The position numbers were made by a program, and so were the translations under genes. Of a DNA stretch of 64,000 nucleotides, positions 27,444 through 61,943 are shown piece by piece. Every line of letters starts with the position of its first letter. Positions within the stretch are counted from its first letter, which is position 1. Below the pieces are notes generated by a model. That model saw nothing but the letters and a program-made list of their open reading frames with translations, ran no database searches and was not told the DNA's origin. The DNA comes from Volvox africanus (lineage: Eukaryota > Chlorophyta > Chlorophyceae > Chlamydomonadales > Volvocaceae): positions 2,418,001 through 2,482,000 of the forward strand of contig BSDZ01000005.1 in assembly GCA_030268105.1 (NCBI GenBank), in the 5' to 3' direction.

Positions 27444-27812
27444 TCAATGAGATTGTGTCGCAGGCAAACGAGCCTCTTTTAGAACGTGTTTCATGTCCGG
27501 CAAGGAATTGTGTGCCGGTTTCCAAGAGTTATGCATGCTAGGGTACCCGGTCCATTTAACCAAGTACTCGTGCACCATGCTCTTGCGTCTGTGCCTACCC
27601 ACATGATGAGTGTGATAGTCCAGCACATGCTCCACATCATACACCTTCTGCTTTCCTGCGATCCAAGTCTCAGGACCCGGTTCTACCACTGCAGGGGTGT
27701 TAGTAATATCGGTGACGGGCTCGGTGCCATGATAGGGGCGGATCAGCAAAACATGGAACGTGGGGTGAATGTTCATGTCAGTGGGCAAAGCAAGCTTGAC
27801 AGCCGCATTCCC
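27444..27812 (-). pseudogene. Element C, left part: end of integrase and chromodomain
   Basis: Minus-strand frame with IHPTFHVLLIRPYHG (end of integrase) and a chromodomain (YDVEHVLDYHTHHVG ... VHEYLVKWTGYPSMHNSW) near the 3' end of pol, closely related to element B. It is the continuation of 40321-42060. The bases TTCCC at 27808-27812 repeat at 40316-40320 and mark where element A inserted into this pol gene. Confidence 0.85.
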
Positions 27813-28165
27813 TGTAGCAGTTCCCTTCAGTATGCTACTAGATTTGTGCGGAAGCGTAGCTTTTGTAGATTTAGAGATAGCTCGCAAGTAAGTTAGCGTC
27901 GCGAAATTGTACATCTATTGGGAATAATTGGTGACAGCGGAGTCTTGAACTCCGAAAAATTAGTAGCGTAATACTAAAATGTCAGGCCTTAGCTCTTCAC
28001 CAGGGTGACTTTAATATTGGCTCACCTAGCCAAGATGTACGGCAATCTTCTTTGCCAATCGCGAAGTTTACTCGTAGTTAGTTTTCGGTTAGGCATCATG
28101 CTTATTGCATGATTGCCTACCGCTTTATCTGGGCCTATTCTCTAAGATAAATGTAGTTTGCTACA
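27813..28165 (-). repeat. LTR 1 of element A (outer, 3' LTR)
   Basis: 353 bp. Differs from LTRs 2 and 3 by A instead of G at 27819 and shares G at 28160 with LTR 2. Confidence 0.95.
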
Positions 28166-28200
28166 TTCCCCCCCCTCTGAAGCGAAACGTCCCGGGAGCG

Positions 28201-31200
28201 TCACCGTCTCCTCTTGGATGAGGTTCCTTTCTCAGTGGGTCTCGGCCCTTTGGCTTTGAGTCTTCGCTCATATTCCTCGATGGCTTCCACCAGAGGATCT
28301 GCTTCTTTCAGTGATGCCTCGGTTTCATATGTATTGTGAGTGGAATCATATCCTTCCCACTTGATAAGGTACTCTCGACGAGTTTTACCTCTGCCCCCAC
28401 GGATTGAGACATCCCGATGATCTACAATGGCTTCAACCATGTAGAATGGTTCACCCTCAATAACGAGTGGTGAGGGTGGTTGTCGCTGAGCGTCCTCCTT
28501 GAATGGTTTCAGGAGTGACACATGAAAGACCGGGTGTAGGCGAGATTCAGCTGGTAAGCCAAGTTTTACCGCTGTTTCACCGATATTAGCGACAACTGTA
28601 TATGGGCCGATGAATTTTGGCATCAGCTTCTTAGTTCCAGGTTTTTTAAGGTTAATATTCTTGGTACTTAACAGCACTTTTTGCCCAACCTCATAACGCA
28701 CGGGGCGCCGAGAAGAGTCAGCATCCTGTTTTTGTCTAGATTGCGCAGCCTGGAGACAAGTTTTAGCGAGTTGCAATCGCTTGCGCATGATGGTGGAGTA
28801 CTCATCAGCAGCTGGCACTTTCGAGGGTATATGCAGGTCAACCGGCACACGCGGTTGCTAGACACCATTAAGCAAAAATGGTGTCATACCTGTCGAACGT
28901 TGTTTGGAGTTATTGATAGCAAACTCAATCAACGGTAAGTGATCATCCCAATCATCCTGATTAGGGGAGATATAGTGCCGTAATGTCTCTTCCAGTAAGC
29001 GGTTCATTCGCTCTGTTTGTCCATCTGTTTGTGGATGGAAGGCTGTGCTCATATGGAGGTGGGTGCCCAATAGGCGAAATATTTCCTTCCAGAAATTGCT
29101 TGTAAAACGTGGGTCCCGGTCAGAGATAATGTTCCTTGGAAGGCCGTGCTGCCGGAATACAGTGGCTACAAAAAGGCGAGCCAACTCTTCCGCTCCTGCG
29201 GTCGTGTGTGTGGGAGCAAAGTGCGTCATTTTGCTCAGCCGGTCCACAAACACTACGATCGCATCATGCCCATTGCGAGTTGTTGGTAGCTGGGTTATCA
29301 AATCCATTGATATGCTCTCCCACACGGAAGAAGGTATGGGGAGCGGCTGCAGCAAACCACCCGGCTTAGTGTTGGTTGGTTTGTTATGCTGACATTGAGG
29401 ACAAGACTTGACGTAGGCCTTCACGTCAGTATCTAGTCCAGGCCACCAGTACGTTTGTGCGATTGCTTGTTTGGTGCGGTCAATGCCGCGGTGGCCAGCG
29501 CATGGGGTATCATGATACTCTTTCATGATGACCCGTCGTAAGTCAGCGTGATTAGGGATGTAAATCTGGGACCCATTGTACCAGAAGTTACCCTTCTTTT
29601 TGAGCCGCAGCTTTGCTACCTTAGTTTTCGTGAGATTGGGATCACCGTCATATCCGCGGATGATTCGGTGTCCTAAGTCGCTGTCAATCAGCGCGGCAGA
29701 AAGCAAGTTGAGCACCACGTCGTGGACCCGCCTGATAGGGTCAGCTACATTCACCCGACCAGGGCGATACTCCCATTTAAATGTGAAACGTGATAATCGC
29801 TCCATCCAACGAGCTTGGCGGCGGGATAGCTTATCCGCGCTTTTCTGTTGTTGGAGGTATACCAGTGGTTGGTGATCCGTGATCAACGTTACATCACTGG
29901 CGCCTTCAAGGTAACAACGCCACTCTTCCAGGGCTAAGACAGTGCCGAGGCACTCTTGGTCTGTTGTTGAGTAGTTGTACTCTGCCTTATTGAATTTAGA
30001 ACTGGTATAGGCGACAGGGTGGTCATCCTGCAAGAGGACGGCTCCTGTGCCATGTATTGAGGCATCAGACCAAACCGTGAAAGGTTTATCAAGCTCGGGG
30101 AGTTTAAGTACTGGTGCATTTGTCAAGGCATGCTTCACACCCTGGAAGGCTGCCTCGCAGGCTTCGGTCCAGTGGAAGGGCACTTTCTCACTGGTAAGGG
30201 TTGTGAGGGGGGCCACAAGGGAGGAATAACCCTGAATAAACCTCCTGAAACAATTGGCTAAGCCAAGGAACGCCCGCAGTCGCTTAATATCCGTGGGGAC
30301 AGGCCAGTCTTTAATGGCTGTTACTTTGCGGTCGTCCACCTTTAAGCCTTCTTGGCTTACTTTGTGGCCAAGGAAGTGCAGTTCGAACCGGTTGAACTGA
30401 CACTTCGACAATTTTGAATTGGTGCTTTCGGAGCAAGGACAGTACCAAACGGAGGTGCTGTTCATGCTCGGCCGGGGTCTTACTAAAGACCAGTATATCG
30501 TCCAAGTACACTAGCACAAATTTGCCAATGTAGTCAGTGAAGACACGATTCATCACTGCTTGGAACGTTGCAGGGGCATTGGTAAGTCCAAAGCAAAGTA
30601 CCTTAAAACTGAAACTGGCCCATGCCTGGGGCTATGAAGGCCGTTTTCTCCACATCCTGTGGAGAGATCAGTATTTGATGATACCCCTGCTGTAAGTCCA
30701 GGGAGCTGAAAATGGTAGCTCCTTGGAGTTGGTCGAAAAGGTCCGTAATATTGGGCATGGGATACCGCTGTTTGATGGTCAGTTTATTAAGTGCACGGTA
30801 GTCTAAGACCATGCGTAGTCCTTGCCCATTTGCCTTTTCGACAAAGAGAACTGGAGCCCCATAGGGTGAGGTAGAGGGTTTGATATATCCCTTATTGAGC
30901 AGTTCGGTAACTTGCTTCTTGACCTCTTGTTGCTCCAGTTGGGTGAGCCTATAGGTTCGTTTAGCGGGTGGTATGGCACCATCCACTAAAGGAATCGTGT
31001 GACCAATGTCCCGGTCGGGGGGGAGGCCTTGAAGGTCCTCAAATACATCCTTGTATTCCTCCAGTAATTCTGATAACTTCAAATTAGCTAGGAGATTATT
31101 CCCACCGGAACTGGGGTCAGGAGTTGGAGTGTGCTCCTCTGCTTGCACAAGTAGGAGGTAACTCTGTGCTCCTTTAGCAATTCGTTTGCCTGCTGCTTTC

Positions 31201-32249
31201 GCAGATACCGTCTCGACAGTAGTCGCTGCATAAAGTGTTGCAGTGACATAGTTCATGAGGGTAATCGCATCAAGGTTAGCGTCGATACCCGGGGAAGACC
31301 AAAGGGATGGCGTAAACGTATATGCATCATTTGGCTTCTTATACACTGTCAGGGTATGAGTTGCCCAGCACATTGTGGCTTTTCGTTTTCCTAACCAGTC
31401 ATTAGCCAGGATAATATCAACACCTGGGATATCTTGCTTTAGAACAAGGAGTTTGACTGTGTCGTGGAACTTGTCAATTTGAAGATTGGTAACAACTGAG
31501 CCCTCAATCAGTTCTGTGTTGCCATTAGCCACTTTAACTGAGCTGGTAAGTGTGGGTTTGAGAGCAAGGGCCATTTTCGTAACGGCTGTTAGGGATATAA
31601 ACCCGTCTGCGGTACCTTTACAATTGGCACCGGAATCGGCCAAGACTTTGCAGGCCGTTTGGCACAGTTGAGCATCAAAGATCATAGAAGGTGTAGAACC
31701 AACTATGGAGTTCAAGTGCACAGTAGTGGACGGTCGGTCATACCATAGCTGGAGAGGCCATGGGACACCGGGCATAAGCTCCCGTACTCCTGTGCAACTT
31801 TTCTTCAGGAACAATTGTTTCCCTGGTGCATATGTTTTGATCAGGCGAAAGCCTGCTGCTCGCATACTGTGCTCTATTGAGCTCCACTTGGGGACTACAA
31901 AGACTGCAGAGGTATTTTCTGGATCTTTGTGTTTGCAGGAGATATAGTGTTTTTGCCATTGAGCAATGTGATTGTAAGGAGGATTAATCCAAGCAAACTC
32001 ACCCGCAAGATTATGGGTCACAAATGGGTTTGATGGAGAGGCAAAACGTGGACAGAGACTATTATTGCCCGAATCGTTACATGTGGCGTCAAAGGTAAAT
32101 TGACGGCCGAGTTGGGTCTCAACCTGACGGAATTCATCAGGCCGGAACATCCGAGCAGTCTGAGGGCTGTCGGTCATGGGCAACACAAACTCTCCATCTG
32201 GTGAAACCAGTTTAACTGGTTCACATTCCTCCACACGCTTGCCAGGGTC
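28201..32249 (-). pseudogene. Element A pol, unit 1 (methyltransferase-like, PR, RT, RNase H, IN, chromodomain)
   Basis: Follows the gag stop (TAG 32252-32250) in the same frame with no nearby ATG. Order: methyltransferase-like domain (32144-31725, NPPY at 31985-31974), aspartic protease (ADSGA, about 31640-31626), RT (YLDDILVFS near 30508), RNase H (SDASIHGTGA), integrase zinc-binding HHCC, catalytic SMDL, SDRDPRF and DGQTERMNR, and a C-terminal chromodomain (YMVEAIVDHRD, REYLIKWEGYDSTHNTYE). Broken by a one-base T insertion at about 30614, a second frameshift at about 30425, and an in-frame TAG at 28860-28858 inside the integrase. Unit 2 carries the same lesions, so the element was already defective before it duplicated, unless these are expression signals. 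Confidence 0.9.
31725..32144 (-). other. N6-adenine methyltransferase-like domain of element A (unit 1)
   Basis: About 140 residues upstream of the protease. FTFDATCNDSGNNSLCPRF is followed by FAWINPPYNHIAQW and later by TSAVFVVPKW. This resembles the phage/bacterial Dam-type family, in which a D-x-C/A segment and CPR(Y/F) precede W-x-NPPY, the catalytic motif that holds the target adenine. Resemblance judged by eye from remembered family motifs. The glycine-rich SAM motif is not obvious, so activity is unproven. Confidence 0.6.
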
Positions 32250-33833
32250 CTATTCGTGCATTTTAGATTTGAGCCGGGCAGCAAGCGCCAACTTCTTTTC
32301 CGCCTCAGCCTTGATCGCCTTGGAACAGTCCACTACGTGGTCCGGCCAAGACTGGCCTGGCTTCTTAAAGCCATGGCAATAGTGGCACCGGGTACTAGGA
32401 GGCTTGTCAGAAGTGTGGTCGGTCCGGGGCTTCTTGCTCACGGACTGCCAGCCCTGTTGAAATCGGGAAATAGGGCGTTTTTGGTAGGGATGTCTGGATT
32501 TAGGTGTGGTTACCATAGCCGCTTTCAGCTCAACGGTGGCAGTCTTATCTTTCCCTGCCTTCCACCGGACCTCTTGGCCGACTGCATATAGGATGCATTT
32601 ATCTAAATCCTGCCAGTCCTTGCCCTCATCGTCGGTTGCACACCGACCCCGAAGTGTTGGAGCTAAGCCTTTGATGTACCAGCTAATCTGGTCGGCTTTA
32701 TCCATGTCCTTAGCTTCGCGTAGGACATCATGGAAGCGCTGTGTGTACTCAGCAACGGTTTCAGCAGTTTTCATGTCGTATTCGTGAGAGTGCAAGCGAT
32801 CCCTTGCTGCCATGGCAGTGTTGCGTTGCGTGTCCCCATATTGCAGGAGAAATGCCGCCCTTAAGGTTTCGCGTGTGAGGGGTTTCTTGCCCGACTTGTG
32901 CATCTCTAGGACATCTGCTGCCCAGACCTGTGCTTTGCCCGTTAAGAAGTACACTATGTGCTCAAATGGGTCCATGTTCATCAGGTCGAAATATTGCATG
33001 AGTACATTGAACCAGGACCGGGTGCAAGTGATGATGCTATCCTTCTTCCCAGAAAATTTGGGGGGATGCGGAACCCGTCTATTAGGGCTTACCTCACTTG
33101 GCTGGCTGGATTTTGGGGCGGTTGTCTGAGAATCGCTACCCCCAGCTAGGTGTGTGGTTGCCTCCACCCAGAGGGACTGAACCTCCTCGAGTGTTGGCAC
33201 CGGAACTAGGTGTTTCTCTAGGATGGCTTGCAGCGTTGTTTGCTGGAGGGCATCCTTAGGCAAAAGGGTTGCGATGCTCGACCCAGCGATTGTGGAAATA
33301 ATACCTAGGATCGCTTTTTTGCGTGAGTCGGCCGCTTCAGATGATTGTGAACGCTCCGAAAGGCGTTCGAAAATCTGTTCTAATAGGGCTCGCGTGCGGT
33401 CCGTATCCGCGCGGAGGGCACCCATCTGATTTTCGAAGGACTCCTTAAGTTGCGTGATTTCACTTTCTAATGCAACAACACGCTTATGGGTTGTGTTGCG
33501 CATTGATTCTGCGACGTGTTGGGCCGCGCGCGTTTGTTCTGGTGTTTGGCCATTGGGAGGTAACACGACATCTCCTTCATCCGGCATTGGTTCTTGGGAC
33601 CCGCGGATAATAGGAATATTATTATTAAAATTATTGGTGGGAATTACTGGAGCCGAAGGCACCGTTTCCGTAGGTTCAATGTTTATCCGATGTGGTCGTC
33701 GAATGGCGGCTATGGCGGCTAAACGCTCTAGTCGCAAAATTTTATTGAGATTTTTACGTTTAAAACGTAAGAGTTCCTTCCGCGCTTTTTGCTGCGGAGG
33801 ATTTGTGGTTGTGGTGGGAGTGTCGCGTGGCAT
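32250..33833 (-). CDS. Element A gag, unit 1
   Basis: Gag of 527 residues. The basic N terminus is followed by an acidic linker and a coiled-coil-like segment (residues about 100-170). A Retrotrans_gag capsid domain follows (WFNVLMQYFDLM through YTQRFHDVL to QISWYIKGL). Near the C terminus there is an unusual zinc knuckle (CHYC, then H twelve residues on, then VVDC; C-x2-C-x12-H-x3-C). Ends in TAG at 32252-32250 with pol in the same frame. Packages the element RNA into virus-like particles. Confidence 0.9.
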   Translation of the reverse strand: MPRDTPTTTTNPPQQKARKELLRFKRKNLNKILRLERLAAIAAIRRPHRINIEPTETVPSAPVIPTNNFNNNIPIIRGSQEPMPDEGDVVLPPNGQTPEQTRAAQHVAESMRNTTHKRVVALESEITQLKESFENQMGALRADTDRTRALLEQIFERLSERSQSSEAADSRKKAILGIISTIAGSSIATLLPKDALQQTTLQAILEKHLVPVPTLEEVQSLWVEATTHLAGGSDSQTTAPKSSQPSEVSPNRRVPHPPKFSGKKDSIITCTRSWFNVLMQYFDLMNMDPFEHIVYFLTGKAQVWAADVLEMHKSGKKPLTRETLRAAFLLQYGDTQRNTAMAARDRLHSHEYDMKTAETVAEYTQRFHDVLREAKDMDKADQISWYIKGLAPTLRGRCATDDEGKDWQDLDKCILYAVGQEVRWKAGKDKTATVELKAAMVTTPKSRHPYQKRPISRFQQGWQSVSKKPRTDHTSDKPPSTRCHYCHGFKKPGQSWPDHVVDCSKAIKAEAEKKLALAARLKSKMHE

Positions 33834-33887
33834 TGCGCAAGTTTATCTCACCTGAGGAGGATCGTTGCTCAGACCCTCGCTACCAAT

Positions 33888-34240
33888 TGTAGCGGTTCCC
33901 TTCAGTATGCTACTAGATTTGTGCGGAAGCGTAGCTTTTGTAGATTTAGAGATAGCTCGCAAGTAAGTTAGCGTCGCGAAATTGTACATCTATTGGGAAT
34001 AATTGGTGACAGCGGAGTCTTGAACTCCGAAAAATTAGTAGCGTAATACTAAAATGTCAGGCCTTAGCTCTTCACCAGGGTGACTTTAATATTGGCTCAC
34101 CTAGCCAAGATGTACGGCAATCTTCTTTGCCAATCGCGAAGTTTACTCGTAGTTAGTTTTCGGTTAGGCATCATGCTTATTGCATGATTGCCTACCGCTT
34201 TATCTGGGCCTATTCTCTAAGATAAATGTAGTTTGCTACA
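33888..34240 (-). repeat. LTR 2 of element A (shared middle LTR)
   Basis: 353 bp. Has G at 33894, as in LTR 3, and G at 34235, as in LTR 1: a hybrid of the two outer LTRs. Confidence 0.95.
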
Positions 34241-34275
34241 TTCCCCCCCCTCTGAAGCGAAACGTCCCGGGAGCG

Positions 34276-37200
34276 TCACCGTCTCCTCTTGGATGAGGTT
34301 CCTTTCTCAGTGGGTCTCGGCCCTTTGGCTTTGAGTCTTCGCTCATATTCCTCGATGGCTTCCACCAGAGGATCTGCTTCTTTCAGTGATGCCTCGGTTT
34401 CATATGTATTGTGAGTGGAATCATATCCTTCCCACTTGATAAGGTACTCTCGACGAGTTTTACCTCTGCCCCCACGGATTGAGACATCCCGATGATCTAC
34501 AATGGCTTCAACCATGTAGAATGGTTCACCCTCAATAACGAGTGGTGAGGGTGGTTGTCGCTGAGCGTCCTCCTTGAATGGTTTCAGGAGTGACACATGA
34601 AAGACCGGGTGTAGGCGAGATTCAGCTGGTAAGCCAAGTTTTACCGCTGTTTCACCGATATTAGCGACAACTGTATATGGGCCGATGAATTTTGGCATCA
34701 GCTTCTTAGTTCCAGGTTTTTTAAGGTTAATATTCTTGGTACTTAACAGCACTTTTTGCCCAACCTCATAACGCACGGGGCGCCGAGAAGAGTCAGCATC
34801 CTGTTTTTGTCTAGATTGCGCAGCCTGGAGACAAGTTTTAGCGAGTTGCAATCGCTTGCGCATGATGGTGGAGTACTCATCAGCAGCTGGCACTTTCGAG
34901 GGTATATGCAGGTCAACCGGCACACGCGGTTGCTAGACACCATTAAGCAAAAATGGTGTCATACCTGTCGAACGTTGTTTGGAGTTATTGATAGCAAACT
35001 CAATCAACGGTAAGTGATCATCCCAATCATCCTGATTAGGGGAGATATAGTGCCGTAATGTCTCTTCCAGTAAGCGGTTCATTCGCTCTGTTTGTCCATC
35101 TGTTTGTGGATGGAAGGCTGTGCTCATATGGAGGTGGGTGCCCAATAGGCGAAATATTTCCTTCCAGAAATTGCTTGTAAAACGTGGGTCCCGGTCAGAG
35201 ATAATGTTCCTTGGAAGGCCGTGCTGCCGGAATACAGTGGCTACAAAAAGGCGAGCCAACTCTTCCGCTCCTGCGGTCGTGTGTGTGGGAGCAAAGTGCG
35301 TCATTTTGCTCAGCCGGTCCACAAACACTACGATCGCATCATGCCCATTGCGAGTTGTTGGTAGCTGGGTTATCAAATCCATTGATATGCTCTCCCACAC
35401 GGAAGAAGGTATGGGGAGCGGCTGCAGCAAACCACCCGGCTTAGTGTTGGTTGGTTTGTTATGCTGACATTGAGGACAAGACTTGACGTAGGCCTTCACG
35501 TCAGTATCTAGTCCAGGCCACCAGTACGTTTGTGCGATTGCTTGTTTGGTGCGGTCAATGCCGCGGTGGCCAGCGCATGGGGTATCATGATACTCTTTCA
35601 TGATGACCCGTCGTAAGTCAGCGTGATTAGGGATGTAAATCTGGGACCCATTGTACCAGAAGTTACCCTTCTTTTTGAGCCGCAGCTTTGCTACCTTAGT
35701 TTTCGTGAGATTGGGATCACCGTCATATCCGCGGATGATTCGGTGTCCTAAGTCGCTGTCAATCAGCGCGGCAGAAAGCAAGTTGAGCACCACGTCGTGG
35801 ACCCGCCTGATAGGGTCAGCTACATTCACCCGACCAGGGCGATACTCCCATTTAAATGTGAAACGTGATAATCGCTCCATCCAACGAGCTTGGCGGCGGG
35901 ATAGCTTATCCGCGCTTTTCTGTTGTTGGAGGTATACCAGTGGTTGGTGATCCGTGATCAACGTTACATCACTGGCGCCTTCAAGGTAACAACGCCACTC
36001 TTCCAGGGCTAAGACAGTGCCGAGGCACTCTTGGTCTGTTGTTGAGTAGTTGTACTCTGCCTTATTGAATTTAGAACTGGTATAGGCGACAGGGTGGTCA
36101 TCCTGCAAGAGGACGGCTCCTGTGCCATGTATTGAGGCATCAGACCAAACCGTGAAAGGTTTATCAAGCTCGGGGAGTTTAAGTACTGGTGCATTTGTCA
36201 AGGCATGCTTCACACCCTGGAAGGCTGCCTCGCAGGCTTCGGTCCAGTGGAAGGGCACTTTCTCACTGGTAAGGGTTGTGAGGGGGGCCACAAGGGAGGA
36301 ATAACCCTGAATAAACCTCCTGAAACAATTGGCTAAGCCAAGGAACGCCCGCAGTCGCTTAATATCCGTGGGGACAGGCCAGTCTTTAATGGCTGTTACT
36401 TTGCGGTCGTCCACCTTTAAGCCTTCTTGGCTTACTTTGTGGCCAAGGAAGTGCAGTTCGAACCGGTTGAACTGACACTTCGACAATTTTGAATTGGTGC
36501 TTTCGGAGCAAGGACAGTACCAAACGGAGGTGCTGTTCATGCTCGGCCGGGGTCTTACTAAAGACCAGTATATCGTCCAAGTACACTAGCACAAATTTGC
36601 CAATGTAGTCAGTGAAGACACGATTCATCACTGCTTGGAACGTTGCAGGGGCATTGGTAAGTCCAAAGCAAAGTACCTTAAAACTGAAACTGGCCCATGC
36701 CTGGGGCTATGAAGGCCGTTTTCTCCACATCCTGTGGAGAGATCAGTATTTGATGATACCCCTGCTGTAAGTCCAGGGAGCTGAAAATGGTAGCTCCTTG
36801 GAGTTGGTCGAAAAGGTCCGTAATATTGGGCATGGGATACCGCTGTTTGATGGTCAGTTTATTAAGTGCACGGTAGTCTAAGACCATGCGTAGTCCTTGC
36901 CCATTTGCCTTTTCGACAAAGAGAACTGGAGCCCCATAGGGTGAGGTAGAGGGTTTGATATATCCCTTATTGAGCAGTTCGGTAACTTGCTTCTTGACCT
37001 CTTGTTGCTCCAGTTGGGTGAGCCTATAGGTTCGTTTAGCGGGTGGTATGGCACCATCCACTAAAGGAATCGTGTGACCAATGTCCCGGTCGGGGGGGAG
37101 GCCTTGAAGGTCCTCAAATACATCCTTGTATTCCTCCAGTAATTCTGATAACTTCAAATTAGCTAGGAGATTATTCCCACCGGAACTGGGGTCAGGAGTT

Positions 37201-38324
37201 GGAGTGTGCTCCTCTGCTTGCACAAGTAGGAGGTAACTCTGTGCTCCTTTAGCAATTCGTTTGCCTGCTGCTTTCGCAGATACCGTCTCGACAGTAGTCG
37301 CTGCATAAAGTGTTGCAGTGACATAGTTCATGAGGGTAATCGCATCAAGGTTAGCGTCGATACCCGGGGAAGACCAAAGGGATGGCGTAAACGTATATGC
37401 ATCATTTGGCTTCTTATACACTGTCAGGGTATGAGTTGCCCAGCACATTGTGGCTTTTCGTTTTCCTAACCAGTCATTAGCCAGGATAATATCAACACCT
37501 GGGATATCTTGCTTTAGAACAAGGAGTTTGACTGTGTCGTGGAACTTGTCAATTTGAAGATTGGTAACAACTGAGCCCTCAATCAGTTCTGTGTTGCCAT
37601 TAGCCACTTTAACTGAGCTGGTAAGTGTGGGTTTGAGAGCAAGGGCCATTTTCGTAACGGCTGTTAGGGATATAAACCCGTCTGCGGTACCTTTACAATT
37701 GGCACCGGAATCGGCCAAGACTTTGCAGGCCGTTTGGCACAGTTGAGCATCAAAGATCATAGAAGGTGTAGAACCAACTATGGAGTTCAAGTGCACAGTA
37801 GTGGACGGTCGGTCATACCATAGCTGGAGAGGCCATGGGACACCGGGCATAAGCTCCCGTACTCCTGTGCAACTTTTCTTCAGGAACAATTGTTTCCCTG
37901 GTGCATATGTTTTGATCAGGCGAAAGCCTGCTGCTCGCATACTGTGCTCTATTGAGCTCCACTTGGGGACTACAAAGACTGCAGAGGTATTTTCTGGATC
38001 TTTGTGTTTGCAGGAGATATAGTGTTTTTGCCATTGAGCAATGTGATTGTAAGGAGGATTAATCCAAGCAAACTCACCCGCAAGATTATGGGTCACAAAT
38101 GGGTTTGATGGAGAGGCAAAACGTGGACAGAGACTATTATTGCCCGAATCGTTACATGTGGCGTCAAAGGTAAATTGACGGCCGAGTTGGGTCTCAACCT
38201 GACGGAATTCATCAGGCCGGAACATCCGAGCAGTCTGAGGGCTGTCGGTCATGGGCAACACAAACTCTCCATCTGGTGAAACCAGTTTAACTGGTTCACA
38301 TTCCTCCACACGCTTGCCAGGGTC
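34276..38324 (-). pseudogene. Element A pol, unit 2
   Basis: Offset by exactly 6075 bp from unit 1, with the same domains, frameshifts and in-frame TAG (34935-34933). The methyltransferase-like domain is at 38219-37800 with NPPY at 38060-38049. The translated segments I compared are identical to unit 1. Confidence 0.9.
37800..38219 (-). other. N6-adenine methyltransferase-like domain of element A (unit 2)
   Basis: Same as 31725-32144, with NPPY retained. It sits between the gag stop and the DSGA protease motif. Confidence 0.6.
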
Positions 38325-39908
38325 CTATTCGTGCATTTTAGATTTGAGCCGGGCAGCAAGCGCCAACTTCTTTTCCGCCTCAGCCTTGATCGCCTTGGAA
38401 CAGTCCACTACGTGGTCCGGCCAAGACTGGCCTGGCTTCTTAAAGCCATGGCAATAGTGGCACCGGGTACTAGGAGGCTTGTCAGAAGTGTGGTCGGTCC
38501 GGGGCTTCTTGCTCACGGACTGCCAGCCCTGTTGAAATCGGGAAATAGGGCGTTTTTGGTAGGGATGTCTGGATTTAGGTGTGGTTACCGTAGCCGCTTT
38601 CAGCTCAACGGTGGCAGTCTTATCTTTCCCTGCCTTCCACCGGACCTCTTGGCCGACTGCATATAGGATGCATTTATCTAAATCCTGCCAGTCCTTGCCC
38701 TCATCGTCGGTTGCACACCGACCCCGAAGTGTTGGAGCTAAGCCTTTGATGTACCAGCTAATCTGGTCGGCTTTATCCATGTCCTTAGCTTCGCGTAGGA
38801 CATCATGGAAGCGCTGTGTGTACTCAGCAACGGTTTCAGCAGTTTTCATGTCGTATTCGTGAGAGTGCAAGCGATCCCTTGCTGCCATGGCAGTGTTGCG
38901 TTGCGTGTCCCCATATTGCAGGAGAAATGCCGCCCTTAAGGTTTCGCGTGTGAGGGGTTTCTTGCCCGACTTGTGCATCTCTAGGACATCTGCTGCCCAG
39001 ACCTGTGCTTTGCCCGTTAAGAAGTACACTATGTGCTCAAATGGGTCCATGTTCATCAGGTCGAAATATTGCATGAGTACATTGAACCAGGACCGGGTGC
39101 AAGTGATGATGCTATCCTTCTTCCCAGAAAATTTGGGGGGATGCGGAACCCGTCTATTAGGGCTTACCTCACTTGGCTGGCTGGATTTTGGGGCGGTTGT
39201 CTGAGAATCGCTACCCCCAGCTAGGTGTGTGGTTGCCTCCACCCAGAGGGACTGAACCTCCTCGAGTGTTGGCACCGGAACTAGGTGTTTCTCTAGGATG
39301 GCTTGCAGCGTTGTTTGCTGGAGGGCATCCTTAGGCAAAAGGGTTGCGATGCTCGACCCAGCGATTGTGGAAATAATACCTAGGATCGCTTTTTTGCGTG
39401 AGTCGGCCGCTTCAGATGATTGTGAACGCTCCGAAAGGCGTTCGAAAATCTGTTCTAATAGGGCTCGCGTGCGGTCCGTATCCGCGCGGAGGGCACCCAT
39501 CTGATTTTCGAAGGACTCCTTAAGTTGCGTGATTTCACTTTCTAATGCAACAACACGCTTATGGGTTGTGTTGCGCATTGATTCTGCGACGTGTTGGGCC
39601 GCGCGCGTTTGTTCTGGTGTTTGGCCATTGGGAGGTAACACGACATCTCCTTCATCCGGCATTGGTTCTTGGGACCCGCGGATAATAGGAATATTATTAT
39701 TAAAATTATTGGTGGGAATTACTGGAGCCGAAGGCACCGTTTCCGTAGGTTCAATGTTTATCCGATGTGGTCGTCGAATGGCGGCTATGGCGGCTAAACG
39801 CTCTAGTCGCAAAATTTTATTGAGATTTTTACGTTTAAAACGTAAGAGTTCCTTCCGCGCTTTTTGCTGCGGAGGATTTGTGGTTGTGGTGGGAGTGTCG
39901 CGTGGCAT
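38325..39908 (-). CDS. Element A gag, unit 2
   Basis: Same 527-residue Gag as unit 1 except Thr for Met near residue 440: codon ACG here against ATG in unit 1, + strand G at 38590 against A at 32515. The same in-frame TAG follows at 38327-38325. Confidence 0.9.
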   Translation of the reverse strand: MPRDTPTTTTNPPQQKARKELLRFKRKNLNKILRLERLAAIAAIRRPHRINIEPTETVPSAPVIPTNNFNNNIPIIRGSQEPMPDEGDVVLPPNGQTPEQTRAAQHVAESMRNTTHKRVVALESEITQLKESFENQMGALRADTDRTRALLEQIFERLSERSQSSEAADSRKKAILGIISTIAGSSIATLLPKDALQQTTLQAILEKHLVPVPTLEEVQSLWVEATTHLAGGSDSQTTAPKSSQPSEVSPNRRVPHPPKFSGKKDSIITCTRSWFNVLMQYFDLMNMDPFEHIVYFLTGKAQVWAADVLEMHKSGKKPLTRETLRAAFLLQYGDTQRNTAMAARDRLHSHEYDMKTAETVAEYTQRFHDVLREAKDMDKADQISWYIKGLAPTLRGRCATDDEGKDWQDLDKCILYAVGQEVRWKAGKDKTATVELKAATVTTPKSRHPYQKRPISRFQQGWQSVSKKPRTDHTSDKPPSTRCHYCHGFKKPGQSWPDHVVDCSKAIKAEAEKKLALAARLKSKMHE

Positions 39909-39962
39909 TGCGCAAGTTTATCTCACCTGAGGAGGATCGTTGCTCAGACCCTCGCTACCAAT

Positions 39963-40315
39963 TGTAGCGGTTCCCTTCAGTATGCTACTAGATTTGTGCG
40001 GAAGCGTAGCTTTTGTAGATTTAGAGATAGCTCGCAAGTAAGTTAGCGTCGCGAAATTGTACATCTATTGGGAATAATTGGTGACAGCGGAGTCTTGAAC
40101 TCCGAAAAATTAGTAGCGTAATACTAAAATGTCAGGCCTTAGCTCTTCACCAGGGTGACTTTAATATTGGCTCACCTAGCCAAGATGTACGGCAATCTTC
40201 TTTGCCAATCGCGAAGTTTACTCGTAGTTAGTTTTCGGTTAGGCATCATGCTTATTGCATGATTGCCTACCGCTTTATCTGGGCCTATTCTCTAAGATAA
40301 ATGTAGTTTCCTACA
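39963..40315 (-). repeat. LTR 3 of element A (outer, 5' LTR)
   Basis: 353 bp. Differs from LTRs 1 and 2 by C at 40310, which breaks the terminal inverted repeat, and shares G at 39969 with LTR 2. This is the promoter-bearing LTR for minus-strand transcription of the array. Confidence 0.95.
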
Positions 40316-40320
40316 TTCCC

Positions 40321-42263: not shown

Positions 42264-44143
42264 TGTGCATTACCTGCCATGCTGTGGGCGAAAACGCCGT
42301 TATACCGATCCACTAATTCCTTAAACTGCCCGGCCAGCTCCGGCGGCATGTCCGGGCGGTCGCACAGCAACCACCTGCCAGCGGTGACCGTGAACTTGGC
42401 CTCGGGCGGGAGTGTGTGCCGCCCTTCTGGTGTGAAATCCGCCGGCTCCAGAGAACCATCGTTGTCATTGTCAGAGTCGTTGCCCTCGTGGTCGCTGTCA
42501 GCACCCGCGGCAGCGGGTCAGCGACGGGGTAGTGGCGCCCCGCCGCAAGTGCCGGGGCACTCATGATGACCGGCCGCCCTTGCCAGTTGGGGGCGGCTGT
42601 AGATAAGCAGACGACGGGGGTTCCACTAACGCGGGCCACCGTACAACGACCGGGAGGTCGATAGGGTCGCGGCCCGGTGGCCGCAGCCGCAAATGCTCAC
42701 GTCCTTCCTCCATATCCAGGTAGCACTGATGTGGGCCCAGCGCAGGCATACCCAGCAGCAGTTCAAACGCCTTCGCGCCCGCATCGGCCACCACTAGTGC
42801 TGGGACGTTGGCAGCAAACGCGTCAGGCGTGCCGGCGCGAAACACCACATGGAGCCCCCCAGCGACCAAGCCCTTCAGGTGTGAACGGCCAGCAGCGGTG
42901 GTAACCGCAAACTCACCGTCTGGGTCAAGCTGCAGCTCGAGACGATCCACCAGCCGCTGCGCAACAAGGACCACTGCGCTGCCAGTGTCCACCAGCACCT
43001 GCGATGGTAGCTGCCCTTCCACCAGCAGTCCCTCCGCGGCTGAGTTCTGCTGAAGGTACGGCAATGGGGCAGCCACACACAGGGGGGCCGCTGCACTTGA
43101 GTGTGAGACCGCTGCGGCCACCAGTGAGGCATACGGCGGCGGCAGCACGGCTGAAGGCAGCCCCCTGCGGCGAAGGGAGTGCAGGCCAGCAAGGGCCGCC
43201 AAAAGCCAGCCTTGAATATCATCCAGTCTGGAATTGTCGGGTCTTAGCTCGGACCTGGGGTCTGGGATCGTCGCCACGGCCGTTGCATCGCCAGCACCTG
43301 GGGGCGTGGGCGGGCGAAGAGCATGAGCCATCTCCGCTGCCCCCGCCACGGCAGTGTAGTATCCTGGGGTATCTACGGGCAGTGTCAAACAATCCTGGAC
43401 CTTAAATGGTCATCCTTCCGACTGGGCCTTTCTTGGCCGACACAACAGAGATGCAACATTGGTATTGAGCAAGTTCGTCCAGATTCAAATCCCCCCACCT
43501 ACGGGACGGTGAGGGCGGTTCAGACTGGTAGATAGCTCGGGAAACCCTCAACCAGGCCGTGAGGGATCGAATTCGCTGACTATAGACTAGGGTGAGGGCT
43601 GGCCCCTAGACTGTAGGATGCAAGGATGCACCCTCGCTGAGGGGGAATACTTGTAGTATCCTGGGGTATCTACGGGCAGTGTCAAAGGATCCTGGACCTT
43701 AGATGGTCATCCTTCCGATCGGGCCTTTGTTGGCCGACACAACAGAGATACAACAGGCAGCCCGGGGGAGTTGAGGAAATCCCATGGGCATGCGTTCCCC
43801 GACTGTGGCGCCGATGGGGAAGACGGAGTACCTGGCAAAAGACATTGGGATGGCCGGGGAGGGCATCACTGCAGCGTCGCCGGGCGCAGAGGAGCCAGCA
43901 GGGGCGACGGCATTGAGTGGCCAAGTGCCCGGTTGCCAGGGCGGGTGCGTGTGTGGAGGTGGAGGCGGCATCAGTGGTGACTGTACTGGTGTGTGTGTGG
44001 GCCGGTAGACAGCGGCTGGCGGGCCGGCATGGACCCCGGTGGCCGTGACGTGTGAGGGGGCGATGGAGGGGGCGGCCAGAGGGACAGGTGGCGCAGGGGG
44101 TCGCCAAGCCAGGGCTGCGGGTTGCACGGGCGCGGGTAGTGCC
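42264..44143 (-). pseudogene. Element E: gag/protease remnant interrupted by a TRIM
   Basis: Removing 43355-43755 plus one GGCAG copy joins 44127-43756 to 43354-42561 in one frame. The first part is Pro/Ala-rich. The second carries a retropepsin-like active site (VLVDTGSAVVLV, DTG at 42989-42981). In another frame lies an acidic linker and a segment typical of the region just before RT in gypsy pol (ELAGQFKELVDRYNGVFAHS, about 42340-42270). RT is missing. It may belong with element C, whose RNase H starts at about 42060 on the same strand, but its protease is unlike that of element B. Confidence 0.55.
43355..43755 (+). mobile_element. Complete TRIM (miniature LTR retrotransposon)
   Basis: Two 104-bp LTRs (43355-43458 and 43652-43755) begin TGTAGTATCC and end A(T/G)(A/G)CAACA and differ at only a few bases. 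The 193-bp interior starts with a primer-binding site (TGGTATTGAGCAAGTTCG at 43460) and ends with a purine tract (GAGGGGGAA, about 43640). It has no coding capacity. The 5-bp duplication GGCAG flanks it (43350-43354 and 43756-43760). Size and layout fit TRIM elements, which depend on another element for their enzymes. Confidence 0.88.
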
Positions 44144-46335: not shown

Positions 46336-46885
46336 TATTCACGAAATTAGTCTAGTGATACTTAGAACCTGCTCTCTGTGAGTTCGGCTGTGCTTTCTGT
46401 TAAAGTCAATCTCTAAGTTAGTCGCGGTCAACGTGGCTCGCGACCTAGACAATTCTGCCTTCTCTGTTAGGTAATATCTTTCTGCAACACTGCTTTCTAT
46501 CTAGAACTTGTATTGCAGTTTTGCTGAGGAATCCGTGTAGTTGCGGGCTGGATAGTACCTTCGCATCGAATCCGACGAGGAGTCAACTTTGTGAATTCAC
46601 TTCGGCTTTCACTAATACATATATATCTCTATTACTTGAAAGGTATTGTGTTTGTTCCAACCGCCGTGAGTGCTTCTGCAGTGTCAACACCTCAGACCCG
46701 TCGGAGCGGCACTTCTGCCCAGTCACTCCGATCCATCGCAAATCAACTTCACGCGCGGACTTCAAAATTTTTGAAGTTCATCGAAGGCATCCAAGCGTTG
46801 GGTAGGCCCTGGTCCTTGCCTTTGCTTTGCCTTTCGCCAGAACAGTCACTCGCAGTTCGATCTGTTAGGCTTTCAGGCATACAAT

Positions 46886-48265
46886 ATGCAAGCCTCGAAC
46901 TTAGCGAATGCTGTCTCGGCTCTTGCTGCCAACACCTTTCAGTTTGTTGGCCGGATTGCTGCTAATGCTAGCCAAGCGAATAGGTGGGAATGGCTCTCTA
47001 GGTTGACACAGCCACCAAATGCTGCTGTGGCAGGTGGTATCGACCTTCCGAACCAGCCTTCACCTATTCCCAGGCAAGGCGGCACAGCATCCCCTGAGGC
47101 ACCTACATCACCTATTTATGTCCCATCCCCTTTTTATGTTCATGGCCCTGCTGTAGTGTCAAACCATTTGACACCTGGTGCCGTGGATATTCCTGGGATG
47201 GCTCCCGCTGCTGCCGCAACAACTTGTGCTGCTGTTGCGGGCACCTCTTCCAGGCCACCTGGGCCTCCTCATACTGGACATGAGGACGAGGTGATAAAAA
47301 TAGCGATCGCAGTGCCTAAGCTGAATATCCCTATGGATGTTAAGCTTTCTGATTTAGGACGAGTTGCTGCGCCTCTAACACGGGCCTTTGTCCGTAATGT
47401 TAGGAACTACTTTGCCACAGCCCGTGGGGGTCAACAGGACTCTACGCGCCGTCTTTTCTTGGCCACTGCCTTTGAAGGCGCGGCAAGATTATGGCACGAT
47501 CAATGGACTAACGCAAGGGATTCCTATACATCTGAGGAACTGCTAGAAGCACTGCTTGTCCGTTTTGCACCCCAGGTCCAGTCACGTGACACTGAGGCAC
47601 GCCTGAAATTAAATGCTGGCAAATACCGCATGCGCCCTGGAGAAACTGTCTCTGCCTATCAGAGCCGCTTTGAGGCTCTTGTCACGCCCATTGCAGATCT
47701 GTCTGATAGTGAGCGTGTGTTTTGGTTCCAGCAGGGCCTGTCATCCGACCTTAGTGGGGACTGTGCAACTGACCTGTCGGGTAAAACCTTTAAATCATAT
47801 ACAGACTTGGTTCAGTTCTCCCTGGGAGCTGAACTTAGGTTACCGGCCCGACGGGAATCTGACAAACTGGCCCGTCCCAAAATAAACATGCTGTCCGTAC
47901 AGGACATGGCCTGCGACGACCCTGACGAGGAGACCCCGGCGCCCCCGACCAAAAAACCGCGGGCTGCATCCGTTCGTCCAGGCATCACCGGGCACGAGGA
48001 TCAGCCGCGGCAGGTTAAGGGCGCCGGTAAGTCTAAGAGGGGCGGCGGACAGCAGGGGAGGCACTTGGCCCCAAAAGGGGGCCACGTGCAGAAGAAGGGG
48101 CCCAAGCAGAACCTAGCGGAATATTTAACCACATTCAAATGTACTAGACGGGAGTTCCATTTCCGTAAACAACATGGGATGTGCCTCCGTTGCGGTTCCG
48201 ACCAACATAGGGTTGACTCCTGCCCAATGCTGGGGGCGGAGAAAAATAAGGGTAAGGACCACTAG
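46886..48265 (+). CDS. Element B gag
   Basis: 459 residues. Pro/Ala-rich N-terminal third, then a Retrotrans_gag capsid domain (RLFLATAFEGAARLWHDQW, YQSRFEALV, VFWFQQGL), a basic Gly/Lys-rich stretch and a standard zinc knuckle CLRCGSDQHRVDSC (C-x2-C-x4-H-x4-C). Ends at TAG 48263-48265. The next codon opens pol in the same frame. Confidence 0.93.
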   Translation: MQASNLANAVSALAANTFQFVGRIAANASQANRWEWLSRLTQPPNAAVAGGIDLPNQPSPIPRQGGTASPEAPTSPIYVPSPFYVHGPAVVSNHLTPGAVDIPGMAPAAAATTCAAVAGTSSRPPGPPHTGHEDEVIKIAIAVPKLNIPMDVKLSDLGRVAAPLTRAFVRNVRNYFATARGGQQDSTRRLFLATAFEGAARLWHDQWTNARDSYTSEELLEALLVRFAPQVQSRDTEARLKLNAGKYRMRPGETVSAYQSRFEALVTPIADLSDSERVFWFQQGLSSDLSGDCATDLSGKTFKSYTDLVQFSLGAELRLPARRESDKLARPKINMLSVQDMACDDPDEETPAPPTKKPRAASVRPGITGHEDQPRQVKGAGKSKRGGGQQGRHLAPKGGHVQKKGPKQNLAEYLTTFKCTRREFHFRKQHGMCLRCGSDQHRVDSCPMLGAEKNKGKDH

Positions 48266-51200
48266 GAACTTGCCCAGGCTGGTATAGAGGGATCACCACC
48301 TGGGGTCTTTGCTGTGGGCCAGATGGTAGCAAAGTGCCGTGCAGTACGGGCTCTTTTGCCCTCTGTTTTAAACCAAGTGGAGCAGGTGATAGGGAGACGT
48401 TTTTCTTTTGATGCACGAACTGTCCGTGCCGGCTTTGATGGCTTTTGTAATCTGTTTGAGCCTCAAGGTCGCCCCCTATCCTCCGCTAACTTGGGTGGGC
48501 ATACTATCTTGTTCACTCCCTCTTCACTCTGCGAGCTACAGAAGCAATTAGCTCTCTTTAGGGCATGCAAACGTCAACACCCTGATACCTCAGCATGCAT
48601 CTTGCTGCCTGAGTATGTGTCCCGACGCAACCCTTCTTTTCTGTCGGGAATGCAACGGGTCTTAAGGTTTAATCCAGGGACGGCTCTTTTCCATAGCCTT
48701 GATATGGCAGGTGAGGTTGTTCAACTCCCTGGAAGCCCATACTCTGTTGACGTCTGGTTTGCTGCTCCTAAATCGGTTCAGGAGGGCTTGCCTGAGACTG
48801 AACCCTGTATTTCAGTTCTCTGCTTGCCTAAAGCTGCTGCCCTGATAGGTGCTGGCGTACCTCTGATCACCGTAAGTACGGCAGGTCGTACGTTCACCGC
48901 CCTAGCTGACTCTGGAGCCAGTGATGATTTCATTTCGGCATCAGTGGTTATGCAGCTTGGCCTGAAACCTAGCCCATGCTCTTGGTCAGAAGTTATCCTT
49001 GCTGATGGGGGTAAGCAGGCTATCTTGGGGCAGGTTAATCTTCGTCTATCTGCAGGTCCTTTAAGGTTAAATGTCCGCCCATACGTGTTGCCTGAGCTAA
49101 CTGATGCTGCCACGTATATCTTGGGTTCTTCCACCCTAGCACAGTATGGGGCTGTCCTTGACTATGAGTCTAAGTCTTTGCGCCTGCGCAAGGGGACTTT
49201 AGTTTGCAAGGTACCCTTTACTACTGCCGGACAGCCACCAGATCAGATGACACCTGCGCCTTGCTTTAATTATGCAACCACTGCTATCTGTCAGCACACT
49301 GAACCTGAAATTGTTGGCAGAAAAGCAGCAGTTCGCATGATTCGCAAGGGGGCCCATGCTTTACTAGTACGGCCCAAGTTGCACCTGAATGCAACTTCTA
49401 TCCCAGCTGATGCCACTGACCCTGAGCTTGAGGCCCTGTTACAGGAATATGCAGATATATTCCAGGAGGTCCCTGGTAAGCCTCCAATGCGGCCTGTGGA
49501 TCACACCATACCTTTGGTGCCTGGTGCAGTACCCGTTTCCCGCCCCATGTATCGGCTAAGCCCCTTGGAGCTGGACGAGGTCAAACGACAGGTTACTGAG
49601 CTGCTGAAAAAAGGTATGATACGGCCAAGCACATCCCCATACTCCGCCCCTATTCTGTTTGTGGGAAAGAAGGATGGGACTCTGAGAATGTGCATTGACT
49701 ATAGGGGGTTAAATGCCGCAACAGTTAAGAACCGTTACCCCCTCCCACGTGTCGATGATCTGCTGGATAAGCTAAAAGATTCTGCATTCTTTAGCTCTAT
49801 TGACCTCCAGCAGGGGTATAATCAGATTCGTATAGCAGAATCTGACATCCCTAAAACGGCTTTCCGTACGCCGTTTGGCCATTTTGAATATACTGTCCTT
49901 AGTTTCGGACTGACGAACGCCCCTGCAACGTTCCAAGCCGTCATGGACCGCATCTTCAGGCCATACATCGACAAATTCGTCATCTGTTATCTGGACGATA
50001 TCCTGGTGTTTTCAAAGACCCGTGAGGAGCACGTACAACACCTCCGCCTGGTCTTTGAGGTTCTGCGGCGTGAGCAGCTGTATGCTAAGCGTTCTAAGTG
50101 CCACTGGGCACAACCACAGGTGGAGTATCTGGGGCATATAGTGTCTCAGGGTGGCATACGGATGGACCCCCGGAAAACTGCTGTTGTTCGGGATTGGCCA
50201 GTGCCCTCCAACCTTCAGGAACTGCGTAAGTTTTTGGGCCTGACCAACTACTTTCGTAAGTTCATAGAGCGCTACTCAGTCATTGCTGCACCGCTAACAA
50301 ATCTCACACGTAAGGGAGCCTTCTCTTCACCTGAGGCCTGGACCTCCGCATGCCAAGCAGCTTTTGATGCTTTGAAGCGTGCTATCTCTGATGATATTAT
50401 CCTGCACTTCCCTGACTACTCATTGCCGTTCCGTGTAGAGGTCATAACTGATGCATCTATACATGGGACGGGGGCAGTTCTGTTACAGCAGGGACGCCCC
50501 ATTGCATACACGAGTAAGAAGTTTTCGGGGGCTGAAACCCGTTATACTACAGGGGAACAGGAATTTCTTGCGGTCCTACATGCCTTGAAGGAATGGCGAT
50601 GTTACCTTGAGGGCCGGCCTTTTGCCCTCAAGACTGATCACAAACCCCTTACGTTTCTGCAAGGTGTGCCCTCCCTTAACCGACGCCAGGCCCGCTGGAT
50701 GGAATACCTGGCACGGTTTAACTTTGATTGGGAGTACCTGAGCGGCTCACTGAACATAGCTGATGCTCTCAGTAGGCACCCCTCACTGCATGCAGCCATT
50801 CTGGCGGTAAGCACACGGAGTAGGTCTCAGGCAAAACCTAACTTCGTCCCCTCCGATTTTACCAAGCGCTTGAAACAGGCTTATGCAGCCGACCCGTGGT
50901 TCACAATTCACAACAACACGGGGCACTTGGTACAGGAGCATGGCTTATGGATCCGATCGGAAGGATCCCACCGTCAGATTGTCGTACCTAACGACGATTC
51001 ATTACGTCGTGAACTTCTCTCACGTTTTCATGACGGCCCTCTTGCTGGGCATCCTGGCTGCACGCGGTTATTAGAGCTTTTGCGGCGTCAATTCTGGTGG
51101 CCCCGCATGGCTAAGGACACCGAAAATTACGTCCTCTGTTGCAACCTGTGCCAGCGCAATAAGGCCCAGTCTGGTAAAGCACATGGGCATCTCCAACCTC

Positions 51201-60886: not shown

Positions 60887-61943
60887 CGGCGGAATCCCAG
60901 CAGTAGCGGCAGCGGCAGAATCCCAGCAGTAGCGGCAGCGGCGGAATCCCAGCAGTAGCGGCAGCGGCAGAATCCCAGCAGTAGCGGCAGCGGCGGAATC
61001 CCAGCAGTAGCGGCAGCGGCAGAATCCCAGCAGTAGCGGCAGCGGCAGAATCCCAGCAGTAGCGGCAGCGGCGGAATCCCAGCAGTAGCGGCAGCGGCAG
61101 AATCCCAGCAGTAGCGGCAGCGGCGGAATCCCAGCAGTAGCGGCAGCGGCAGAATCCCAGCAGTAGCGGCAGCGGCGGAATCCCAGCAGTAGCGGCAGCG
61201 GCAGAATCCCAGCAGTAGCGGCAGCGGCGGAATCCCAGCAGTAGCGGCAGCGGCAGAATCCCAGCAGTAGCGGCAGCGGCGGAATCCCAGCAGTAGCGGC
61301 AGCGGCAGAATCCCAGCAGTAGCGGCAGCGGCAGAATCCCAGCAGTAGCGGCAGCGGCAGAATCCCAGCAGTAGCGGCAGCGGCGGAATCCCAGCAGTAG
61401 CGGCAGCGGCAGAATCCCAGCAGTAGCGGCAGCGGCGGAATCCCAGCAGTAGCGGCAGCGGCAGAATCCCAGCAGTAGCGGCAGCGGCAGAATCCCAGCA
61501 GTAGCGGCAGCGGCGGAATCCCAGCAGTAGCGGCAGCGGCAGAATCCCAGCAGTAGCGGCAGCGGCGGAATCCCAGCAGTAGCGGCAGCGGCAGAATCCC
61601 AGCAGTAGCGGCAGCGGCAGAATCCCAGCAGTAGCGGCAGCGGCAGAATCCCAGCAGTAGCGGCAGCGGCAGAATCCCAGCAGTAGCGGCAGCGGCAGAA
61701 TCCCAGCAGTAGCGGCAGCGGCGGAATCCCAGCAGTAGCGGCAGCGGCAGAATCCCAGCAGTAGCGGCAGCGGCAGAATCCCAGCAGTAGCGGCAGCGGC
61801 AGAATCCCAGCAGTAGCGGCAGCGGCGGAATCCCAGCAGTAGCGGCAGCGGCAGAATCCCAGCAGTAGCGGCAGCGGCGGAATCCCAGCAGTAGCGGCAG
61901 CGGCGGAATCCCAGCAGTAGCGGCAGCGGCGGAATCCCAGCAG
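60887..61943. repeat. 26-bp satellite, 41 repeat junctions
   Basis: Unit RGAATCCCAGCAGTAGCGGC then AGCGGC (26 bp). The variable base R falls exactly every 26 bases from 60891 to 61931 and is the only variation I see inside the array. Order of R: GAGAGAAGAGAGAGAGAAAGAG (split: GAGAGAAGAGAGAGAG, AAAGAG), then AAGAGAAAAAGAAAGAGGG. The period is not a multiple of 3, so it is unlikely to be coding. Confidence 0.97.

Follow-up and report, generated by a model that had tools for sequence, protein, structure and literature searches.

A Phage-Type Adenine-Methyltransferase-Like Domain between Gag and Protease in a Chromovirus of Volvox africanus

The 64,000-nucleotide stretch of Volvox africanus DNA analyzed here ("the window") contains, on its minus strand at 27808-40320, a chromovirus that we call element A. 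We found that this element encodes, between gag and the protease, a Dam-type N6-adenine methyltransferase-like domain (the MT domain), about 145 residues long, whose sequence shows kinship with the N6-adenine DNA methyltransferases of phages. Sequence matches, the predicted fold and the position in the element all support the initial annotation, which had interpreted this region as a methyltransferase-like domain in a chromovirus pol. Judging from sequence and model, the domain of family A, to which element A belongs, is likely active as a cDNA (or RNA) adenine methyltransferase, with catalysis lost in the sister families B and C. The fuller account that we tentatively prefer, and to which we assign a little less than an even chance, is that the readthrough Gag-Pol of element A carries an active phage-type adenine methyltransferase that would act on newly made cDNA, and that the domains of families B and C, having lost the motif, probably serve only in binding or as structural modules.

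Sequence kinship and predicted fold

The MT domain is read from a single open frame of 140 residues at 31725-32144 (-), and its modelled extent is approximately 31713-32153 (-). All of the motifs named in the initial annotation (FTFDATCND, CPRF, WINPPYN and VFVVPKW) are present in the translation of this one frame, and with them the order F-x-D-A, N..C, NPPY and a later proline, including the aspartate of FTFDA. An identical domain is encoded in the second tandem unit of the element at 37800-38219 (-).

Several profiles recognize this sequence. The Pfam Dam family (PF05869), with which a comparison had been proposed at the outset, matches the translation of 31725-32144 with an E-value of 5e-6. 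That part of the expectation stood, as did the superposition of the phage NPPY on NPPY, but the score of 26.7 bits is 1.4 bits short of the curated cut-off of 28.1, and it drops in longer pol frames, to 23.8 bits in that of the window and 21.0 in that of another copy. PHROG_111 (“DNA methyltransferase”) matches the domain at 1.3e-6, and TIGR01712 (phage N6A methyltransferase) at 2.5e-4 with 20.6 bits, far from its equivalog cut-off of 97.05. When scored with a hidden Markov model of three phage enzymes, the MT domain reached 33.1 bits and a DIRS-like domain from this genome scored 31.3, whereas none of 2000 shuffled versions of the MT domain exceeded 9.0; the domains of families B and C were absent from the best 12 rows of this scoring. 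The matches to PF05869 and PHROG_111, together with shuffles that never came near 33.1 bits, led us to reject a chance motif match, and the claimed kinship with phage-type N6-adenine enzymes is upheld by PF05869, PHROG_111 and TIGR01712 alike.

A tblastn search of 50,697 phage records (limit E 10) gave 117 matches, all with less than 60% identity and the best with an E-value of 1e-2. Among the matches listed (15 of the 117), 11 are named methyltransferase or methylase and four hypothetical protein or Gp62, at a query coverage of 78-85%. In the alignment, the phage NPPY falls onto the NPPY of element A, and the motif-I aspartate, the N..C that follows it and a later proline are also common to both. 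Residues F26, D29, N38, C41, N64, P66, Y67 and P95 are among the invariants of an alignment of three phage enzymes, the metagenomic protein P0003 and two family-A copies; the three phage proteins are strong PF05869 matches on their own. The phage N6-adenine methyltransferases (PF05869, TIGR01712, PHROG_111) thus have motif order, NPPY and predicted fold in common with the MT domain. They differ from it in being stand-alone genes with 22-23% identity to the element A domain, which itself scores beneath the curated PF05869 and TIGR01712 cut-offs.

No meaningful sequence match of the MT domain to any solved structure was found. Its AlphaFold (AF2) model resembles Rossmann adenine methyltransferases, namely phage N6A enzymes, KsgA and PCIF1, and in this model NPPY (motif IV) is located directly after a strand, in agreement with the fold and motif placement that the initial annotation had anticipated. 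The domain is therefore predicted to fold like the phage adenine methyltransferases. The loop of residues 33-49, which contains N38 and C41, is poorly predicted in this model. The best matches among solved structures are the RNA enzymes KsgA and PCIF1; among viral proteins, the fold matches that bear a name are DNA N6-adenine methyltransferases.

The host element and its gag-pol boundary

By its long terminal repeats (LTRs), target duplication and domain order, element A is a Ty3/gypsy chromovirus (Metaviridae). The order of its Pfam matches is gag, MT domain, protease, reverse transcriptase (RT), RNase H, integrase zinc finger and rve core, and chromodomain, which confirms the place between Gag and protease of a chromodomain-bearing Ty3/gypsy pol that had been claimed for the domain. 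The gag frame (32253-33842, -) contains a Retrotrans_gag match at about 32661-32957 (1.2e-6) and, as read from the translation, a CCHC-like knuckle near its end. The first pol frame (30603-32249, -) comprises the MT domain, the protease at about 31335-31667 (RVP_2, 9.3e-6) and the start of RT, in which it is interrupted. The second (28858-30510, -) comprises the end of RT, RNase H and the zinc-binding (about 29377-29547) and core (about 29032-29313) regions of the integrase, and it ends at an in-frame stop. Pfam identifies a C-terminal integrase domain (SH3_Tf2-1) and the chromodomain (about 28261-28443, 2.3e-12) at 28201-28857 (-). Frame changes in RT and a stop in the integrase region leave this copy of element A broken outside the MT domain.

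Three LTRs of 353 bp with TG..CA ends are present on the minus strand: the 3'-most at 27813-28165, a middle one common to both units at 33888-34240, and the 5'-most at 39963-40315. They delimit an LTR-internal-LTR-internal-LTR array with a period of 6075, bordered by the 5-bp target-site duplication GGGAA at 27808-27812 on the 3' side and at 40316-40320 on the 5' side. The fact that the tandem units differ at only three of 6433 compared bases suggests recombination between LTRs. We considered whether a DIRS element could occupy 31725-32144 and rejected it, given the LTRs, the protease, the DDE integrase, the chromodomain and the location of the MT domain ahead of the protease. The Pfam scans of the frames revealed no tyrosine recombinase family, and those of pol no cytosine methyltransferase family at E-values up to 1.

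Other repeats were noted in the vicinity. The array at 27808-40320 apparently lies inside another chromovirus remnant, a chromodomain piece of which is found in the 3' flank at 27447-27806 (-). A 282-residue frame at 42564-43409 (-) has an aspartyl protease domain (PF13975, 8.3e-8) and is probably part of another retroelement. Finally, a 26-bp minisatellite at 60887-61943, with about 41 copies that are 97% matching, lacks stops in three frames on a single strand.

In families A, B and C, gag and pol share one frame that is split by one conserved stop. In element A this stop is a TAG at 32250-32252 (-), followed by G, and the MT domain is the first domain on its 3' side. The position of the gag stop is shared by 28 of the 30 family-A copies read, the remaining two being frame-shifted upstream, and the TAG is followed by G in every one of the 23 copies (of the 30) whose context was examined. 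At the family B and C loci read, TAG is found at the boundary in 11/11 and G is next in 10/11; the family-B element of the window also reads TAG-G. From this pattern, the conserved UAG looks like a site of programmed readthrough that would make the MT domain the N-terminal part of Pol. Because it lies directly behind a conserved in-frame UAG, the domain is probably produced by readthrough alone, as part of Gag-Pol. A hairpin on the 3' side of the family-A UAG that is more stable than shuffles was not found; 100-nt folds behind the UAG, compared with shuffles, gave z-scores of 0.51 (A), 0.05 (B) and -1.82 (C, for which 6 of 200 shuffles fold equally well). A possible CCCAGG/CCUGGG stem within about 10 bases behind the gag UAG is common to B and C (48263-48362 (+) in the window and 587-686 (-) in L063).

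Conservation of the motif across families A, B and C

Among 150 scored rows of the genome (from 1785 candidates), 56 are near-full, with at least 95% identity across 136 residues or more; both window copies belong to them. Of these, 43 near-full family-A copies (30 plus 13) were read, the other 13 rows being outside the count, and NPPY and D29 are intact in all 43. Seven partial or decayed loci (L087-L093) were excluded from this number. L087 is cut short and keeps NPPY, as does L088, in which His replaces the motif-I Asp; L089 has no recognizable motif; L090 reads NSAY, L091 NAPF and the decayed L092 NARL; in L093, the motif region is outside the covered part.

Comparison of family A with two old, decayed copies (A') gave a dN/dS of 0.23-0.28 at a dS of about 0.7; these A' copies have stops in common and hence are not independent comparisons, and both read NSAY, not NPPY. 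A third and more decayed copy, L089, gave 0.35-0.42. The young family-A copies (41, of which 34 are distinct) have a pN/pS of 0.79, a value that is close to neutral and uninformative on selection.

Beyond family A, the window holds a family-B element (46775-52336, +) that consists of gag (46775-48262), TAG (48263-48265) and an uninterrupted pol of 1356 residues (48266-52336) in the order MT-like domain, protease, RT-RNase H, integrase and chromodomain. The MT-like domain of this chromovirus (48323-48790, +) is homologous to that of element A and has TPSS in place of NPPY. TPSS or IPSS is likewise found at this point in 11/11 of the family B and C loci read. For B versus C, pN is 0.36-0.37 and pS is saturated at 0.76-0.82. 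This pN at a saturated pS, along with the low dN/dS between A and A', indicates that the MT domain has been preserved, and that in B and C this has happened without NPPY. Further, a methyltransferase fold is still predicted, with fold matches, for another family-B copy. Because the catalytic motif is gone, the B/C domain is probably non-catalytic, only a binding or structural module; its retention without NPPY implies that the methyltransferase fold can be useful in the absence of catalysis.

Relatives elsewhere are few. Three protein searches for wider relatives returned one (P0002), none and two (P0003 and P0004), respectively, and no relatives of the MT domain were found in viral contigs. 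P0002 (ENA, 701 residues) is 63% identical to the domain and has NPPY followed by a protease and RT. The metagenomic proteins P0003 and P0004 read NGPY and NAPY; in both, as in L091, the Asn and an aromatic residue persist and the first proline varies. KsgA and Erm enzymes read N-x-P-Y/F, so variants of the NGPY/NAPY type need not be dead.

The fate of the motif in B and C bears directly on family A, where the domain could be a catalytically dispensable nucleic-acid-binding module that holds RNA, primer tRNA or cDNA for Gag-Pol, with NPPY as an ancestral remnant. We give this possibility a modest probability. In its favor are the constraint on B/C domains that read TPSS or IPSS, the methyltransferase fold still predicted for family B, the NSAY of the A' copies and the CPPL of DIRS-like domains in the same genome (L002, L007, L021). 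The intact state of all four motif residues in the 43 family-A copies and in P0002 argues against a dispensable motif, as does the persistence of Asn and the aromatic residue in P0003, P0004 and L091.

Possible function and comparison with known systems

In our preferred account, that of an adenine methyltransferase active in family A, a phage-type N6-adenine enzyme would have been captured once between gag and protease, before the A, B and C families split, and its catalytic motif would then have been lost in the B/C line. On the basis of common position and sequence, a single capture with later B/C loss appears to be the most economical history. The MT domain would enter the particle inside readthrough Gag-Pol, packaged with RT, where it would add methyl groups to adenines of the freshly synthesized element cDNA. 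The benefit may be a host-like or protective adenine mark on the incoming DNA. Readthrough, S-adenosylmethionine (SAM) binding, catalysis, the cDNA substrate and the benefit are all points that we infer, and the fold is predicted. We favor cDNA over RNA as the substrate because the sequence kin of the domain are named as DNA methyltransferases.

In Chlamydomonas, 6mA is reported to lie close to the starts of active genes, and an adenine mark could therefore help a new insertion to escape silencing. Carried to its full extent, this idea would have the element write 6mA on its own cDNA in the particle, the insertion bear the mark of active host genes and so escape silencing, and the sister families keep a nucleic-acid clamp; we regard this combination as unlikely.

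RNA is the main alternative substrate, because the closest solved folds are those of RNA enzymes: PCIF1 is a cap-specific adenosine methyltransferase and KsgA an rRNA adenosine dimethyltransferase. Gag-Pol is packaged with RNA, and the domain could be an RNA N6-adenosine methyltransferase that marks the genomic RNA or mRNA of the element and thereby serves its translation, its packaging or its evasion of RNA decay. We consider this improbable, as DNA N6-adenine methyltransferases make up both the matching sequence families and the viral fold matches that carry a name, and matches in the Protein Data Bank depend on which structures have been solved. That the domain is a passenger without a function, or resembles methyltransferases by chance, which the pN/pS of 0.79 among young family-A copies would allow, is very improbable in light of the fold matches, the 2000 shuffles that never approach its score, the dN/dS of about 0.25 between subfamilies and the retention of the domain across A, B and C.

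Among known systems, DIRS elements likewise bear a Dam-type (PF05869) domain in a retrotransposon. DIRS1/PAT-like elements, defined by RT, YR and MT, are described from Volvox, Chlamydomonas and other organisms (PMC3266345, PMC3783388), and the function of their Dam-like domain “still remains unknown” in the words of one account (PMC3266345). As described there, the MT of DIRS elements follows RT and RNase H and is accompanied by a tyrosine recombinase, without a DDE integrase (PMC3266345, PMC3783388), whereas that of element A precedes the protease in an element with a DDE integrase. The top PF05869 matches in the present genome are DIRS-like loci (17 plus-strand loci read, of 30). In the frames of L002, L007, L021 and similar loci, RT is followed by the Dam-like domain. 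Motif IV in these DIRS-like copies is mostly CPPL (CPTL in L011 and RPPL in L026), as opposed to the NPPY of element A. A profile comparison of the element A MT domain with the DIRS-like domain, made with few effective sequences, gave no match (1.7% probability) and so no evidence that the former arose from the latter.

A DNA methyltransferase is also built into a Gypsy pol in KnitGypsy-Dnmt3 of Klebsormidium nitens, where De Mendoza and colleagues describe it as under purifying selection (PMC5890265). That enzyme, however, is a C5-cytosine Dnmt3, structurally unrelated to Dam-like enzymes, and the available portions of the paper mention adenine enzymes for DIRS only (PMC5890265). Orchid Ty3/Gypsy elements with an AlkB m6A demethylase present another N6-adenine-modification domain in this group, but AlkB is described as an RNA eraser in a separate ORF, unlike the domain of element A (PMC9289625). 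The ParB-methyltransferase encoded by accessory genes of algal Sola1 transposons is an N6A/N4C enzyme proposed to modify the transposon's own DNA; it differs in belonging to a DNA transposon, as a separate gene with another domain architecture (PMC12477816). In its accessible text, PMC6338049 assigns DAM domains to DIRS and DCM domains to Ty3/Gypsy and DIRS, and a later sentence names both groups together. A figure legend in PMC11673190 has an N6-adenine methyltransferase next to a tyrosine recombinase in diagrams of elements that it leaves unspecified. In the accessible portions of the open-access literature on methyltransferase domains in retrotransposons and algal elements, we found no report of a Dam-type domain in an LTR element; the available parts of PMC9033089, PMC5348765, PMC8226300 and PMC3350952 contain nothing on such a domain.

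The occurrence of a Dam-like domain together with LTRs and a DDE integrase suggests that RT and an adenine methyltransferase can be coupled outside the DIRS life cycle as well. Families A, B and C, which have the same architecture and reside in one genome, provide a natural comparison between a domain with its motif present and one in which it is lost. Were the far-reaching version of the idea, which we regard as unlikely, true, they would constitute a natural series from enzyme to pseudoenzyme within a single genome.
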